IMG/VR virus record: IMGVR_UViG_3300044640_000858
Span: 1-23,019 of that record
Strand: one strand, 5' to 3'
Origin: a virus
Length of the DNA stretch: 23,019 nt
A program made the position numbers and the translations under genes. The notes beneath the pieces are model-generated. The model worked only from the letters and a program-made list of their open reading frames with translations, was not told the origin of the DNA and did not search any database. This document shows, piece by piece, positions 8,367-15,209 of this stretch. The number at the start of each line of letters is the position of its first letter. The first letter of the stretch is position 1.

Positions 8367-9035
8367 ATGCCTAGAAAAACACCCGGACCGCCCTGCCAAG
8401 TTTGCCAAAGCCCAAGCATCGCAAAGGGGCTTTGCGACAAGCATTATCGCCGCCTTAAAAAGCACGGTCATGCAGATGCAACGCTTCGCCCGGATGATTG
8501 GGGGCAGCATCACAAGCATCCAGTGTGGCATTCGTGGAAATGGACAAAGCGAGTTGGCCGCGTAGCCAGATGGAATAGCTTTCAGGCATTTGTTGCCGAT
8601 GTCGGTGACAGACCGGGAGAAAAGAACACACTGCGCCGCCACAACGTGCAAATGCCGTTTGGCCCGGAAAACTTTTTTTGGGCCGCGCCAGTCGCGCCAC
8701 AAGCCGACCGCAAGACGCTTGAAGGCCGCGCGGAATATGTTCGCGAATGGAATAAGAAGAACCCTTTGCGGTCCAAGCACCACTACTTGAAGAGGATGTT
8801 TGGGATAGGCATCGCGGAATATGAGGCGATGCTAGAAGCGCAGGGCGGCTGTTGTGCCATCTGCGGACAGAAGGATGAATGGTTCAAGCTTGCAGTCGAT
8901 CATTGCCACGTAGGCGGGTATGTCCGTGGCCTTCTGTGTTCGCAATGCAATCGCGGTCTTGGACTTTTCAGGGATGACCCGCAGCGATTGAAGGCGGCGG
9001 CAAGTTATCTTGAAAAAAGCAAACGCCTTATCTGA
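8367..9035 (+). CDS. Free-standing HNH endonuclease, recombination endonuclease VII type
   Basis: The 222-aa protein has two parts. The N-terminal part has a C10-x2-C13 ... C23-x2-H26 zinc motif, then a degenerate segment (WNSFQAFVADVGDRPG ... GPENFFW) like that of DMG/NCRW-type phage HNH proteins. The C-terminal part (about 140-220) is an Endonuclease_VII domain with zinc ligands C163-x2-C166 and C191-x2-C194, the VDHCH catalytic strand (D178, H179) and N195. All catalytic residues are present. The gene lies between the capsid gene and a small structural gene, is more AT-rich than its neighbours, and is flanked by hairpins (8315-8335, 9055-9074), all typical of a homing endonuclease insertion. 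A resolvase role, as for T4 gp49, is the alternative. Confidence 0.88.
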   Translation: MPRKTPGPPCQVCQSPSIAKGLCDKHYRRLKKHGHADATLRPDDWGQHHKHPVWHSWKWTKRVGRVARWNSFQAFVADVGDRPGEKNTLRRHNVQMPFGPENFFWAAPVAPQADRKTLEGRAEYVREWNKKNPLRSKHHYLKRMFGIGIAEYEAMLEAQGGCCAICGQKDEWFKLAVDHCHVGGYVRGLLCSQCNRGLGLFRDDPQRLKAAASYLEKSKRLI

Positions 9036-9804: not shown

Positions 9805-10461
9805 ATGGCAGTTACAGGCACTCAGACCGTTCGGGATATCATCACGGACGCGCTTCTGGATATCGAGGTGGGCGCTATCGGTTCGGCGGCGAATGCCACG
9901 CTGACGGCCCATGCCGTGCGGCATTTGAACCGCATCATGAAGGGCTGGCAGTTGCACGACGACGCGCCGTCATTCCTGAAGGCCCGCCAGACGCTAACGT
10001 TGACTACGGCGGCAAGCTACACGCTGGCCCCCGAGCGGCCTGTCCGCATTTTGTCGGCGCGATTGAAGCGCAACGGGATTGAAATCCCGATGTTTCGCAT
10101 GACGCGGGATGAATACGACGAGTTGCCGCAAAAGCTGACAAAAGGCACTCCGACGCAGTTCTACTATGACCGCCAGAAGGAAAACGCGCTGTTTTATGTC
10201 TGGCCCGTCTTGGCTGTAGCAGCGGGGGAAACCGTTGAAATCACGTATGAACGCGAGTTTAAAGACGTGGACATCAACGACAATATCGACTTGCCGGGCG
10301 AATGGTGGGATGTTGCGGTTTTGCAACTGGCCTCGCGGCTTGTCCACGCTTATGGCTCGGAAGCTGCAAAGGCATCTGTCCCGGCGCGGGCTGAGGTAAT
10401 GCTGAACATGGCGCTTGGCGCGTCTATGGACGGCGAAAGCGTGTATTTCACCAATGGCTAA
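9805..10461 (+). CDS. P22 gp4-like tail accessory factor
   Basis: The 218-aa protein closes the portal after packaging and forms the first neck ring. The helical N-terminal region (DIITDALLDIEVGAIG ... LNRIMKGWQ) followed by the tail-like part (FRMTRDEYDELPQKLTKGTPTQFYYDR) and the beta segment (FYVWPVL ... VEITYEREF) is characteristic of the gp4-type accessory factors of P22-like phages. It is longer than P22 gp4 (166 aa). The start is 2 nt after the previous stop, and its stop overlaps the gp10-like gene (ATGGCTAA), the same gp4-gp10 order as in P22. Confidence 0.85.
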   Translation: MAVTGTQTVRDIITDALLDIEVGAIGSAANATLTAHAVRHLNRIMKGWQLHDDAPSFLKARQTLTLTTAASYTLAPERPVRILSARLKRNGIEIPMFRMTRDEYDELPQKLTKGTPTQFYYDRQKENALFYVWPVLAVAAGETVEITYEREFKDVDINDNIDLPGEWWDVAVLQLASRLVHAYGSEAAKASVPARAEVMLNMALGASMDGESVYFTNG

Positions 10462-11815
10462 ATACACGTTCTTCACGCAAGCCGCGCGGGATGGCAGCAA
10501 TGTGGCCGCGTCTTCCGAGGAACTGGTGAACGTTTACCCGGAAGCAGCGCCGGGGGATGCCAGAACGCGCATTGCCTTGCGGTCTGTCTTGGGCGAGGTG
10601 GAGTTTAGCAGCTACGCAACCCCCATCGCGCAGGCTTTGGAAGCCGCAACAGGGCTGCTTTGGGCCGTTTCAGGCGGAATTCTTTACCAGATCAATGCCG
10701 ATGGGTCGGTTTTGTCGCGCGGGACGGTCGGAAACAGCGTGGAAACGTCCGTTTCGGGCAATGGGTCGAATGTTTGCGTGGTTGCGGGCGGGAATTACCG
10801 GGTTTGGAACGGAACTTCGCTTCTCAGCCCAACACCGGGCGCGTTTTCCAGCTTCGGATCGGTGACTTTCGCGGCCTATGACACGATTTTGACCGAACTG
10901 AACGGGCGGCGCTTCCAATGGTCGGCAACGGCTGATCCTACGACGCTCAACGCGCTGAATTTTGCCACGGCAGAGCAGCGGGATGGAAATATCATTCGCG
11001 GCACGGTGGACCGGGCGCAGCTTTACCTGTTCACCGATGCTTGCATTGAGGTCTGGCGGTCCACCGGCACGGCGGGGGCAACGCGGTATTCGTTCCTGAC
11101 GGTGATTGACCAAGGGCGCGGGCTGCGGGGCTATCATCTGCTTGCGCGGGACAGCTTCGGGATCTTCTTTGTCGCCAATGACGGTGTGGCCTACATCGTA
11201 TCGGCTGACAGCATCATGCCCGTGTCAACGCCTGCGGTTCAGACCGACCTGAACGAGGGCAACCCCACGGCCTGCTATTATTACGAGGACCGGGGTCACA
11301 AGTTCTGCGTCATTCGGTTCTCAGACCGTCCGGCATGGGTTTACGACCTGACCACGCAGCTTTGGCATCGGCGGCAGAATGGCGTTGTGCGGGGGCCGTG
11401 GGACGTCCAGCGGATGGCCTATGCGTTCGACAAGTGGATGGCGGCGGATGACTTCGGCGTGGTGATGGAGATGCGCCGCACGAATACAGACCGAGGGATG
11501 CCGCTTCTGCGGATTATGCGCGGCAAGCCGATTTACATGGACGGCAAGAAGTTCAGCGTTCGCGAGTTTGAACCGCTTTGCTCTGTCGGGGAAAGCAACT
11601 TGGGCCGCGATGCTGAGTTGATGCTGCGCTGGTCGCGTGATGGCGGGCAGACGTGGGAAGGGCCACAAACCGCATCGGCGGGCGACTTGGGCGACTATGC
11701 GACCGAGGTCAAGTTTTACGCGCTTGGCCGGGGTGAGCAGTTTGTGCCGGAAGTGTCCTGCGCTGATGCCACCGATCTGGTGTTTTATTCCGATGCGATT
11801 GCGGAACTGACATGA
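10454..11815 (+). CDS. P22 gp10-like packaged-DNA stabilisation / tail hub protein
   Basis: The product is 453 aa from ATG 10454, close to P22 gp10 (472 aa). An in-frame start at 10415 lies inside the gp4-like gene and is rejected. The N-terminus contains the family pattern EELVNVYPE followed by repeated beta segments with GGILYQINADG, LTELNGRRFQWS, and an RAQLYLFTDACIEVWRSTG block. The middle (SFGIFFVANDGVAYIVS) and C-terminal strands (WSRDGGQTWEGP) fit a beta-propeller-like tail hub that plugs DNA below gp4 and anchors the tail fibres or spikes. It follows the gp4-like gene and starts in an 8-nt overlap. Confidence 0.87.
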   Translation: MAKYTFFTQAARDGSNVAASSEELVNVYPEAAPGDARTRIALRSVLGEVEFSSYATPIAQALEAATGLLWAVSGGILYQINADGSVLSRGTVGNSVETSVSGNGSNVCVVAGGNYRVWNGTSLLSPTPGAFSSFGSVTFAAYDTILTELNGRRFQWSATADPTTLNALNFATAEQRDGNIIRGTVDRAQLYLFTDACIEVWRSTGTAGATRYSFLTVIDQGRGLRGYHLLARDSFGIFFVANDGVAYIVSADSIMPVSTPAVQTDLNEGNPTACYYYEDRGHKFCVIRFSDRPAWVYDLTTQLWHRRQNGVVRGPWDVQRMAYAFDKWMAADDFGVVMEMRRTNTDRGMPLLRIMRGKPIYMDGKKFSVREFEPLCSVGESNLGRDAELMLRWSRDGGQTWEGPQTASAGDLGDYATEVKFYALGRGEQFVPEVSCADATDLVFYSDAIAELT

Positions 11816-12021
11816 ACGTTTCCAAGGAAATCCGCTACGTCGATCCGCAAGGGCGCTTGACCTATGACGGGATGGCACTGTTGCAGGACATGCAGCGGCG
11901 TCTTGAGGATGCCCTGTTGCGGCTTGATGCCATTGCTGCGGTAGCGCCCCCTGCGGGCGGGGCGACCATTGACGTCCAAGCAAGAACGGCGGTCAACTCG
12001 ATCAGGACGGCGGCTGGATGA
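11812..12021 (+). CDS. Small coiled-coil protein after the tail hub gene
   Basis: The product is 69 aa, starting in an ATGA overlap with the gp10-like gene and ending in one with the ART gene. It opens with an RYVDPQGRLTYDGMALLQDM segment and has an amphipathic helix (about 20-45) and an Ala/Gly-rich tail. Short proteins with an N-terminal DPQGRLT-like strand and a helix are regular companions of gp10 in podovirus genomes. The function is not known. A small neck or fibre-attachment protein is possible. Confidence 0.7.
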   Translation: MNVSKEIRYVDPQGRLTYDGMALLQDMQRRLEDALLRLDAIAAVAPPAGGATIDVQARTAVNSIRTAAG

Positions 12022-13253
12022 ATGCGCTAGAGCGGTTTCTTGCGGCTGGCCCTGAGCGCCGCGCAGCGTTGGAAAACGCGCTGGCCTTTTACGTTCCGCC
12101 CGAACTGCGGAGCCTGTTGGGGCTTGGCGCGGAGTTGAACCCAGTCGTGAGCATGGAGCGCGCGGGGCAGGGCGCGGCGCGGATTGCCGATCCTTCGGTG
12201 CAGGGCTGGGATAGGGTGCAGGCGTTTGGCGACACGGCCAGCAACATGGCCGCATTTGTTGCGCCGATGATTGCGGCCAGAGGCGGCGCGGTTCCTGCGG
12301 CTAACGCGATGGAAGAAGCCGTTATGGGCTGGTCTAGCGCGGCGGGTGTGCCGGAGTTTCTGGCGGATGAATTCGGCGGGGTGGGATTCGGCGGCGATAT
12401 GGTCGCGCAACGTGGCGCGCAGATTATGGAAATGCTGCGGTCTGGCCGTGGCGCAGAAGTCACTGATGAAATGCTGGATATGGGCGATGCGACCGCCAAC
12501 GCGCGCCTAAACCAGTGGCTGAATGAAAATTATGACTTGCCGATGGACGGTGCCGCACGGATTGGACGCGCGCGCGAAATGGGCATGGACCCCGCAAAAA
12601 TGTGGTATCATGGGACGCCTGACGCGCGCGGGATGGAAACAGGTTTTGCAACGCCATATGAGCGGCTTTATCCAGAACGTGACCGCAGTGGCCCGTATTT
12701 TCTTACAGACAATCGCAGCGTAGCGCGCACTTATGCGGATGACACGCGCGCGGCAGATTATCAAAACGCCGAGCCGCGCGTCCTTTCGCTTTACAGTCGA
12801 GCCGAAGACCCTCTGACGATCAACGCGCAGGGCGACAACTTTCGCGGCATTGAACTTGACTATCTAGAGCAAGCCATGCGCGAAAAATATGGCAACGGCC
12901 CGATAATGGACAACTTTCTGCGTGAAGCAGACAAACTGCGCGCAGGCGAAGATGAAGGCCGGATCACTACAGACGTTTTGGCAGCGCTGGCAAAAAGGTT
13001 CGGTGCAAGTGATGTAGTTGATGTTCGCAACGTGGTGGACACTTATACGGGGGACGGGCCGCGAAGCACGGTCCGCATGTTCCGCGACCCAACCTCTGTC
13101 CGGCTATCTTCCGCCCGCTTTGACCCGCGCCTAGCACACCTTCGCAACCTGTCGGCAGGCGGTGCGGGCGCTGTCTTCTTGTCAGATCAATTCCAGCAAG
13201 AGGAAGAACCCCGCAACGCCCTGTCCAACTTCCTCGCGGAGCGCGGCCTGTGA
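12018..13253 (+). CDS. Virion-type protein with ADP-ribosyltransferase (ART-PolyVal-like) domain
   Basis: The 411-aa protein has an N-terminal hydrophobic, Ala/Gly-rich part (about 25-135) like those of ejected phage proteins, then a linker RIGRAREMGMD and an ADP-ribosyltransferase fold from about 195 to 375. Visible ART landmarks are YHGT (197-200; H198 for NAD binding), GPYFLTDN (225-232; Y227), the run SVARTYA, and the terminal SVRLSSARFDPRLAHLRNLSA segment (360-380) typical of the polyvalent-protein ART domains. In the H-Y-[E/D/Q] class the third residue lies later; I cannot fix it by eye. It starts in an ATGA overlap and opens the ejection cluster. It may be injected to modify host proteins, as T4 Alt is. 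Substrate unknown. Confidence 0.78.
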   Translation: MNALERFLAAGPERRAALENALAFYVPPELRSLLGLGAELNPVVSMERAGQGAARIADPSVQGWDRVQAFGDTASNMAAFVAPMIAARGGAVPAANAMEEAVMGWSSAAGVPEFLADEFGGVGFGGDMVAQRGAQIMEMLRSGRGAEVTDEMLDMGDATANARLNQWLNENYDLPMDGAARIGRAREMGMDPAKMWYHGTPDARGMETGFATPYERLYPERDRSGPYFLTDNRSVARTYADDTRAADYQNAEPRVLSLYSRAEDPLTINAQGDNFRGIELDYLEQAMREKYGNGPIMDNFLREADKLRAGEDEGRITTDVLAALAKRFGASDVVDVRNVVDTYTGDGPRSTVRMFRDPTSVRLSSARFDPRLAHLRNLSAGGAGAVFLSDQFQQEEEPRNALSNFLAERGL

Positions 13254-13678
13254 CCCTCAACGACCGCTTCACCGTCTGGTTTAAGGGCGACACGGAAGCT
13301 TGCGAATTTGCCGCGCAGCTTTGGACCGCTTCGCAGGAATGGGACGACCTGCACGACGAGGGCAAGTGCGAAAACCACAACGCCTTGTTGTCATGGCTGG
13401 CCTTCGGCAAAGAGTTTACCCCGTATTTCGCCAAAAACGCGCACATCTTGCGGCCTGTGTTCCTGAGCATCTACCTGCAATGGCGCGCGGCCAACGTCCT
13501 AGAGCGCGGCGATCAAAGCGACGTAGCCAAAGCCTACATGCTGCGCGCTGGCCTCTATTCCATGTGGCACATGATGGCTTGGATTGCCGGGGGCGACGAT
13601 TGGGCGGCAGAAGTCGGCCCTGAGATTTACCGCAGCTACGGGGAAACCCCTGCGGAACTGTGGAAGGAGTTTCACTGA
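13250..13678 (+). CDS. Conserved-looking hypothetical phage protein
   Basis: The product is 142 aa, starting at GTG in a GTGA overlap (13250-13253) and ending in a TGATG overlap with the next gene. It is rich in Trp and aromatic residues (WTASQEWDDLHDEG, SWLAFGKEFTPYF, SMWHMMAWIAGGDDW) and helical, with no signal peptide and no convincing TM. This gives the look of a compact folded globular protein. I recall no function for such a sequence. The tight coupling within the ejection module suggests a virion-assembly or ejection-associated role. A small non-virion folding partner for the neighbouring internal proteins is also possible. Confidence 0.7.
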   Translation: MTLNDRFTVWFKGDTEACEFAAQLWTASQEWDDLHDEGKCENHNALLSWLAFGKEFTPYFAKNAHILRPVFLSIYLQWRAANVLERGDQSDVAKAYMLRAGLYSMWHMMAWIAGGDDWAAEVGPEIYRSYGETPAELWKEFH

Positions 13679-14601
13679 TGCCGGGTCCAGCAGTAGCAAT
13701 CGCGGGGGCTTCGCTTGGGTCTGCCGCCATGCAGGCCAGCGCCGCAAGACGGGCAGGCGCGCAAGCCGCAGCATCCGCCGATGCGGCAACCAACCTTCAG
13801 CGCGAGATTTACAACGACACGACAGAGCGGTTTAAGCCGTTTGTCGCGGCGGGCGGTAATGCGCTTGCGGCGGTAATGTATGAGATGGGGCTGGGGCCGC
13901 GTCCTACGGCCACAGGCGCATCGCCTGCAATCGAAGAAGTCACAATCCCCGGAACGCCCGGCACGCCTGCATTCGTTCCGTCGCAAAATCGGCAGGGGCG
14001 CGAAAGCAACAACTGGTTGCTTGTGGATATGCTAGAAGGCAGACCCGCAATCCCCGGCACACCCGACACCAAGCGCTTTCGGGTTGGCGGGCGGGAGTTC
14101 GAAACCCGTTCCGCCGCAGAGGAGTTTGCCGCAGCAAACAGAACGGGCGGCACCGAATACGAGGGCTACAGCAAATCCCCGATGGCGCGGTATCTGCTGG
14201 AAAAGGGCGTGGACAGTATCGACGCATCGGCAGCATCGCGGGGTGGCTTGTTTTCCGGGGCGACGTTGCAGGCGTTGGAAAACAACCGCCGCGCGATTAT
14301 CACCGCAGACACGGACAAGTATTTCGCGCGGCTGGCGGGCTTGACGGATATGGGCCTTGGCGCGGCGGGCAATCAGGCCAGCGCGGGCGCAAACTTCGCC
14401 AACAACGCGGGCAGCACGATGATGCAGGCAGGGCAGGCGCGGGCGCAAGGAACGCTTGGCGCGGCAGACGCTTGGCGCACGGGGATCACCGACATGGCGG
14501 GGACATACGGGTTCTTCTCAGGGTCCAACCCGATGGCCGCATACACCGCGCCTACGCTCATGGCTACATCGCCCCGCCCGATGGCTAATCCGAGGTTCTG
14601 A
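13678..14601 (+). CDS. Putative internal virion / DNA ejection protein
   Basis: The product is 307 aa from ATG 13678. An ATG at 13660 lies inside the previous gene and is rejected. It begins with an Ala/Gly-rich hydrophobic helix (PGPAVAIAGASLGSAAMQASAAR), then a helical segment (LQREIYNDTTERFKPFVAAGGNAL), a Pro/Thr linker, and a C-terminal helical region with YLLEKGVDSIDASAASRGGLFSG and repeated Gly/Ala/Asn/Gln segments. This organisation matches the small ejection proteins of podoviruses, such as P22-type gp7 or DNA-transfer p32-like proteins. It is expected to leave the virion ahead of the DNA and help form the trans-periplasmic channel. The assignment is by architecture and position. Confidence 0.75.
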   Translation: MPGPAVAIAGASLGSAAMQASAARRAGAQAAASADAATNLQREIYNDTTERFKPFVAAGGNALAAVMYEMGLGPRPTATGASPAIEEVTIPGTPGTPAFVPSQNRQGRESNNWLLVDMLEGRPAIPGTPDTKRFRVGGREFETRSAAEEFAAANRTGGTEYEGYSKSPMARYLLEKGVDSIDASAASRGGLFSGATLQALENNRRAIITADTDKYFARLAGLTDMGLGAAGNQASAGANFANNAGSTMMQAGQARAQGTLGAADAWRTGITDMAGTYGFFSGSNPMAAYTAPTLMATSPRPMANPRF

Positions 14602-14603
14602 CG

Positions 14604-15209
14604 ATGAGTGTCCTTCAGGCATATATCGGCGGCAAGGAAGCCCGCAAAGCCCGCGACAACGCTTTGGCACTAGCATCGCTGCCAAGTGGTACGGCTTTCA
14701 ACCCAATGGCCGCAGTTGTCGGGGGGCATGACCACGCAATGCATCGCGGCATCAGTCATGCCGATTGGCTGCGCTACAGCAATGAAGGCGCAACCCGAAA
14801 CGACCCACTAAGCCCCGAATTGATCAACGCCATGAGTTTTGTGGGCGACATGGGCATCACAATGGATGTTGTTTCGGGCGGGCAAGAAGCTGAGGGGCAG
14901 GGCGGCTCGCGGACCGGGTCAACGCGACACGATCACGGGATGGCGGCTGATGTTGATTTTTACAAGGGCGGGCGCAAGCTAGATTGGAACAACCCGCAAG
15001 ACATCCCAATTCTTCAAGAGATTGTCCGCACAGCTAGGGCGCGTGGCGTGACCGGGATTGGCGCGGGGGATGATTACATGGGGCCGGGGCGCTTCCATGT
15101 CGGTTTCGGCACTCCAGCTGTTTGGGGAGCCGGAGGCAAGAGCGCCAACGCGCCGTCTTGGCTTGTTGAAGCCTATAACAACCCCATGGCAACTTATGCG
15201 GGAATGTAA
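14604..15209 (+). CDS. M15-type zinc peptidase domain, virion-associated
   Basis: The 201-aa protein has a 22-residue N-terminal leader (MSVLQAYIGGKEARK...) and then a D-Ala-D-Ala carboxypeptidase/VanY-like domain. Zinc motif HxxGxAxD is present as H109-D-H-G-M-A-A-D116, and the third ligand H165 is in GRFHVGF. The family's usual HID/HVD is HVG here, so the catalytic acid may be displaced. Such a domain would hydrolyse peptidoglycan cross-links during entry. The start codon follows the previous stop by 2 nt. The leader is nearly the same as that of the following gene, which suggests a common packaging or ejection address. M15-fold enzymes are also used as endolysins, but the lysis cassette is elsewhere. 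Confidence 0.83.
   Translation: MSVLQAYIGGKEARKARDNALALASLPSGTAFNPMAAVVGGHDHAMHRGISHADWLRYSNEGATRNDPLSPELINAMSFVGDMGITMDVVSGGQEAEGQGGSRTGSTRHDHGMAADVDFYKGGRKLDWNNPQDIPILQEIVRTARARGVTGIGAGDDYMGPGRFHVGFGTPAVWGAGGKSANAPSWLVEAYNNPMATYAGM

Follow-up and report, generated by a model that had tools for sequence, protein, structure and literature searches.

What does the gene that lies just ahead of the DNA-ejection genes of this phage encode, and how might its product be used? The window, i.e. the whole stretch of DNA analysed here, is a virus record of 23,019 bases with P22-like late genes in the order TerS, TerL, portal, head protein, Hc3, the gene under study, phrog_21390, a gp7-like gene and large proteins. 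The open reading frame is genuine and uninterrupted, and 4-base overlaps join it to both neighbouring genes (Table 1). The preliminary description had placed it at the ejection cluster, and its position in a P22-like late operon, a short way upstream of the gp7-like gene, bears this out (the Pfam P22_gp7 model scored 21.6 bits on the latter gene, under its cut-off). The phage itself is a short-tailed, P22-like podovirus. The phage genes most similar to those of the window come from Octadecabacter, Paracoccus and a Rhodobacterales bin, from which we infer that its host is probably a marine member of the Rhodobacterales.

Table 1 Features of the braced ADP-ribosyltransferase (ART) gene and its neighbours, in window positions.
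Feature	Position	Strand	Evidence
Head closure Hc3 (P22 gp10-like), upstream of ART gene	10415..11815	+	phrog_578 E 9e-57
69-aa ORF, ATGA overlap with ART start	11812..12021	+	
411-aa braced ART protein	12018..13253	+	ATG start, TGA stop, open throughout
N-terminal helical domain (residues 1-125), Ala-rich	12018..12392	+	phmmer of N-terminus, model helices 3-103, hydropathy
N-brace / linker (residues 128-193): ..LRSGRGAEVTDEMLDMGD..LNENYDLPMDGAARIGRAREMGMD..	12399..12596	+	family conservation
ART core (residues 194-356), exchanged between relatives	12597..13085	+	AF2 models, fold searches, identity, breakpoints, GC
H198, predicted NAD-binding/catalytic His, strand 1 (196-200)	12609..12611	+	
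Y227-F228, strand 2	12696..12701	+	
D341, predicted third active-site residue, end of strand 5 (333-340)	13038..13040	+	
C-brace (residues 357-381): DPTSVRLSSARFDPRLAHLRNLSAG	13086..13160	+	family conservation
phrog_21390 protein, GTGA overlap with ART stop	13250..13678	+	
P22 gp7-like DNA-ejection protein	13660..14601	+	phrog_598 E 4e-32

Megablast of the window against phage records returned no match. Its 854-aa protein matched a single phage record, Paracoccus phage KLEP18-1, in which a search for PF18760 gave no match and on which our literature search found no paper. The portal protein recurs at 100% identity in contig IMGVR_UViG_3300042558_000488 (L003:2731-4734), which stops before the ART gene. 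The Manatee Spring gene in the equivalent position (L007:9292-10464) was considered as a further candidate and, when its sequence was read, turned out not to be an ART. Elsewhere in the window, an Endonuclease VII-like gene (8367-9035; phrog_2914, E 4e-33) lies between the head protein and connector genes, and a 201-aa ORF (14604-15209) between the gp7-like and gp20-position genes displays, by eye, an M15/VanY-like motif (HDHGMAADVDF..GRFHVGFG). Its product is a probable ejection-module cell-wall peptidase; Pfam gave no match to this ORF at 0.05.

Residues 194-363 of the 411-aa protein very probably adopt an ART fold, as had been proposed from four motifs that are all present in it: YHGT (197-200), GPYFLTDN (225-232), SVARTYA (234-240) and SARFDP (365-370). 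The Pfam model ART-PolyVal (PF18760) scored the window protein at E 0.0033 and 18.6 bits, short of the curated cut-off of 31.2 bits, and matched 32 of 70 full-length family members at E <= 0.01 (best 2.1e-34). AlphaFold (AF2) modelled the full protein at a pLDDT of 75 overall and about 90 across most of the ART region, and the domain alone at a pLDDT of 82 and a pTM of 0.79; both models show the ART strand order. Residues 280-327 form a large helical insert. Among the 14 top PDB matches of the domain model, 13 were ARTs (diphtheria toxin, exotoxin A, Tpt1, RES toxins, ParT and tankyrases), each of them weak alone (E 0.035 or worse; TM <= 0.46 for ART matches), and the full-protein model gave a similar list. 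Predicted viral structures (BFVD) yielded significant matches, several named ART-PolyVal, the best of the list at E 1.9e-11, while phmmer against PDB sequences found no relative. Taken together, the Pfam matches, the models and the structural matches lend good support to the ART fold, which is probably of the polyvalent-protein type. ART is the sole domain recognised in the window protein, whereas its relatives carry two or more, as the definition of a polyvalent protein has it.

The N-terminal domain ahead of the ART region is shared with eight homologous loci (phmmer; L009, L046, L061, L026, L060, L031, L012 and L037). It had been described as hydrophobic. This is correct only in part: the domain is Ala-rich and helical, and hydropathy led us to reject a transmembrane N-terminus, as the highest 19-residue Kyte-Doolittle window in the N-terminal part scanned reaches 1.34 (residues 77-95), and no convincing transmembrane span is seen.

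Used alone as a query against viral and genome contigs, the window protein found nothing, and relatives were detected with alignment queries. In 2.3 Gb, tblastn retrieved gp6 of Octadecabacter Antarctic DB virus 2 (OANV2, or DB2) at E 6e-11, the sole related phage record at E <= 1e-3. An alignment of this protein with that of the window led to 12 loci, and a further alignment query against viral contigs to 147 confirmed relatives, of which 80 were kept, plus one in a Rhodobacterales bin. In all, about 90 homologous viral loci, with OANV2 as the one cultured phage among them, share an N-brace and a C-brace, between which clustering distinguishes ~20 core types; searches that started from three other members of the family revealed no further cultured phage with braces. 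The N-brace follows the pattern ..EVTDDMLDMGD..YDLPMDxASRxARAxEMGF.. in relatives and the C-brace ..DPxNIRSxFARFDPRLxHLxNLSA.. (RSxFARFDPRL), with R362 and A366-P370 invariant in 46 of 46 aligned braced rows. Averaged over all pairs of 77 proteins, identity is 47% in the N-brace, 27% in the core and 59% in the C-brace. Wherever a reference gene matched nearby, family genes lay near TerL, portal, Hc3, tail tube (tail-tubular) or gp7, which places them in the region for morphogenesis or ejection; several gene orders occur. Additional domains in relatives comprise GNAT, LPD23 with a zincin-like motif, M15, CHAP, a cell-wall hydrolase (Hydrolase_2) and a second ART. Two further records have ART matches: a >3,000-aa protein in the 39-kb record of Limnohabitans phage DC33 (L098; PQ492659.1), which is filed, probably wrongly, under Inoviridae, and a 'DNA repair protein' of another P22-like phage (L099; MW202573.1, 3600-5639), matched near its C-terminal end and encoded directly upstream of Hc3.

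We consider it probable that the gene product is a late effector of the ejection module: a braced, polyvalent-type ART that is packaged and injected, and whose core can be swapped. In such a P22-like podovirus, the helical N-terminal domain and the N-brace would carry an H-aromatic-D ART, and the C-brace would close the domain. The protein would be synthesised alongside the other ejection proteins, be built into the virion and reach the cell together with the DNA, where it would ADP-ribosylate a host target early in infection. The constant braces may provide a docking or packaging surface and, at the level of DNA, homology arms for recombination, and core swaps would presumably alter the target or evade a host counter-measure.

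Virion delivery is likely given that the gene lies inside a P22-like late operon, just before the gp7-like gene. An active ART could equally be made late if it stayed in the producing cell, acting there, e.g., on targets of the host or of a superinfecting phage or modifying virion assembly, since a position in the late operon agrees with late synthesis of a packaged and an unpackaged protein alike. Our literature search found no virion proteomics or mass-spectrometry evidence of packaging for any family member, and the paper on phage GT1 reports mass spectrometry with no mention of ADP-ribosylation. However, we judge an unpackaged ART rather unlikely: the gene lies just ahead of the ejection genes, relatives fuse the ART to M15, CHAP and Hydrolase_2 domains and to large polyvalent proteins, which would suit delivery at entry, and packaging into the head has been inferred for the polyvalent-protein class in analyses of 2017 and 2022 (PMC5512222, PMC9503650).

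Would the packaged protein be an active enzyme? According to Iyer et al. 2017 (PMC5512222), polyvalent-protein ARTs have an active site of three residues, with H on strand 1, Y on strand 2 and D on strand 5. The catalytic role proposed for H198 agrees with the alignment of 47 cores, 40 of which keep His in this column (S in 4, R in 2, T in 1). The same role for Y227 does not: Tyr occurs there in the window protein only (V in 18, F in 10), and the conserved aromatic column is the adjacent one, F228, with F, Y or W in 39 of the 47 (18, 14 and 7, respectively), so that Y227 alone would be a poor choice of mutant. The third active-site residue is probably D341, a column with D in 31 of the 35 sequences having a residue there (35 of the 47 align at this position). 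We looked by eye for a Glu in the last strand, at a place like that of E988 in PARP1, and found none, which leaves D341 as the better candidate. The predicted site thus consists of H198, F228 (or Y227, one residue before) and D341. H198 and D341 fit the pattern of the Tox-ART-HYD2/polyvalent ARTs, the strand-2 aromatic being F228 or Y227, and ADP-ribosyltransferase activity of the window protein is predicted from these residues and the modelled fold.

It is very unlikely, in our estimate, that the domain is instead a degenerate, non-catalytic ART scaffold with a structural role, e.g. as a binding domain of the ejectosome. Such a scaffold would accommodate the loss of the catalytic His (S, R or T) in seven of 47 cores, the unconserved Y227, the last strand without Glu and the helical insert. 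Against it, H198, the aromatic residue and D341 are all present in the window protein, and the conserved columns of the core are those of the active site, most of the remainder being hypervariable, a pattern expected from selection on catalysis plus a change of target. As the His is missing in seven cores, some of these may lack activity or work by a different chemistry. Strand-1 His is replaced by Arg (YRGD, then an STS-like stretch) or Ser (YSGT) in L071:8080-9801, L097:8101-9804, L024:8881-9795, L036:8950-10101 and L091:1021-4728; these cores keep the same braces, and their chemistry may differ.

Judged from DNA comparisons, the core between the braces has been replaced repeatedly among related phages. 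The DNA of loci L015 and L018 is 99.0% identical over 2,866 bases upstream, 96% in the N-brace and 92% over 1,353 bases downstream, and their cores (384 and 339 bases) cannot be aligned; L018 has an additional upstream stretch with LPD23 and the zincin-like motif. Matching flanks with swapped cores are likewise seen for L081/L086 and for DB2/L016/L017. The DB2 clade has five core types in five phages, including DB2 and L016, whose tail tubes are 94% identical. More generally, only 35% of the N-brace pairs at 80-90% identity have their core type in common, and cores 52-69% identical are found within N-braces less than 60% identical. The core type of the window also occurs without a brace, in L046, the ART1 of which is the nearest core match to the window (38%).

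For the window gene itself, which has no close twin with a direct replacement, composition suggests that its core was replaced. GC is 0.554 in the core against 0.659 in the N-domain and 0.636 in the C-part, and the fourfold-site GC of the core is 0.61 compared with a mean of 0.73 in segments of other genes (3.4% of segments are as low). Across the family, 61 of 73 members, which are not independent, and 18 of 19 core types have a fourfold-site GC that is lower for the core than for the brace. Fast vertical divergence under selection, with no cassette exchange, is a highly implausible source of the diversity of cores: while some core types track the neighbour-gene tree (20 changes versus 23.1 in shuffles, 0.6% of which were as low), 92-99% identical DNA breaks off at the brace edges into unalignable cores of different lengths, similar cores sit in different braces, L046 has the core type without a brace, and fourfold-site GC drops in the core. 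The earlier reading of the protein stands in its ART domain and ejection operon, and had missed the braced-cassette architecture and the exchange of cores.

How does this braced ART compare with known systems? With the polyvalent-protein ARTs (PF18760; Tox-ART-HYD2 clade, Iyer et al. 2017) it has in common the YHGT strand, the N-x-x-V-A-x-x-Y helix, the predicted H-aromatic-D active site, the phage late-gene context and, in its relatives, neighbouring GNAT and peptidase domains; it differs in its single recognised catalytic domain and in the braces around exchanged cores of its family. OANV2 gp6, a hypothetical protein of a cultured podovirus, shares the brace-core-brace plan (29% identity over 251 aa) and a TerL/tail-gene context, yet has another core type, an extra upstream domain that is ParB-like by eye, and the order TerL - ART - tail tube. 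The comparison with T4 Alt made in the preliminary description is apt for the proposed mode, since a virion-borne ART injected with the DNA to modify host proteins is the best model given the ejection operon, but not for descent in the narrow sense: Alt belongs to another phage type and to the R-S-E (Alt/VIP2) clade, as opposed to H-aromatic-D for polyvalent ARTs (Iyer et al. 2017, PMC5512222), with H198 in the place of Arg in the window protein.

Polymorphic toxins, too, combine a constant delivery part with an exchangeable enzymatic part; in the braced ART family, however, the variable part is internal, with the constant C-brace after it. More tentatively, in a reading that could readily prove wrong, the family may be a phage counterpart of polymorphic toxins, its braces acting as docking surface and recombination arms and its injected ART core being swapped within near-identical populations with differing host targets; in rare types His itself, the catalytic residue of strand 1, has given way to Ser or Arg. 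PMC5512222 and PMC9503650 already describe polyvalent ARTs, the probable packaging of these proteins and their mosaic domain architecture. A constant-variable-constant plan with core exchange was found neither in the accessible passages of these papers nor by text searches, to which most subscription literature is closed. What is new relative to known phage ARTs is hence the braced, swappable ART cassette.

Phage enzymes that are injected do their work at the very onset of infection, within minutes, and to our knowledge few of their targets have been identified outside T4. Closely related phages that differ mainly in their ART core, together with the cultured OANV2 on Octadecabacter IceBac 430, which has the same architecture, would make the targets of polyvalent ARTs, and a possible change of target with the host, directly testable.
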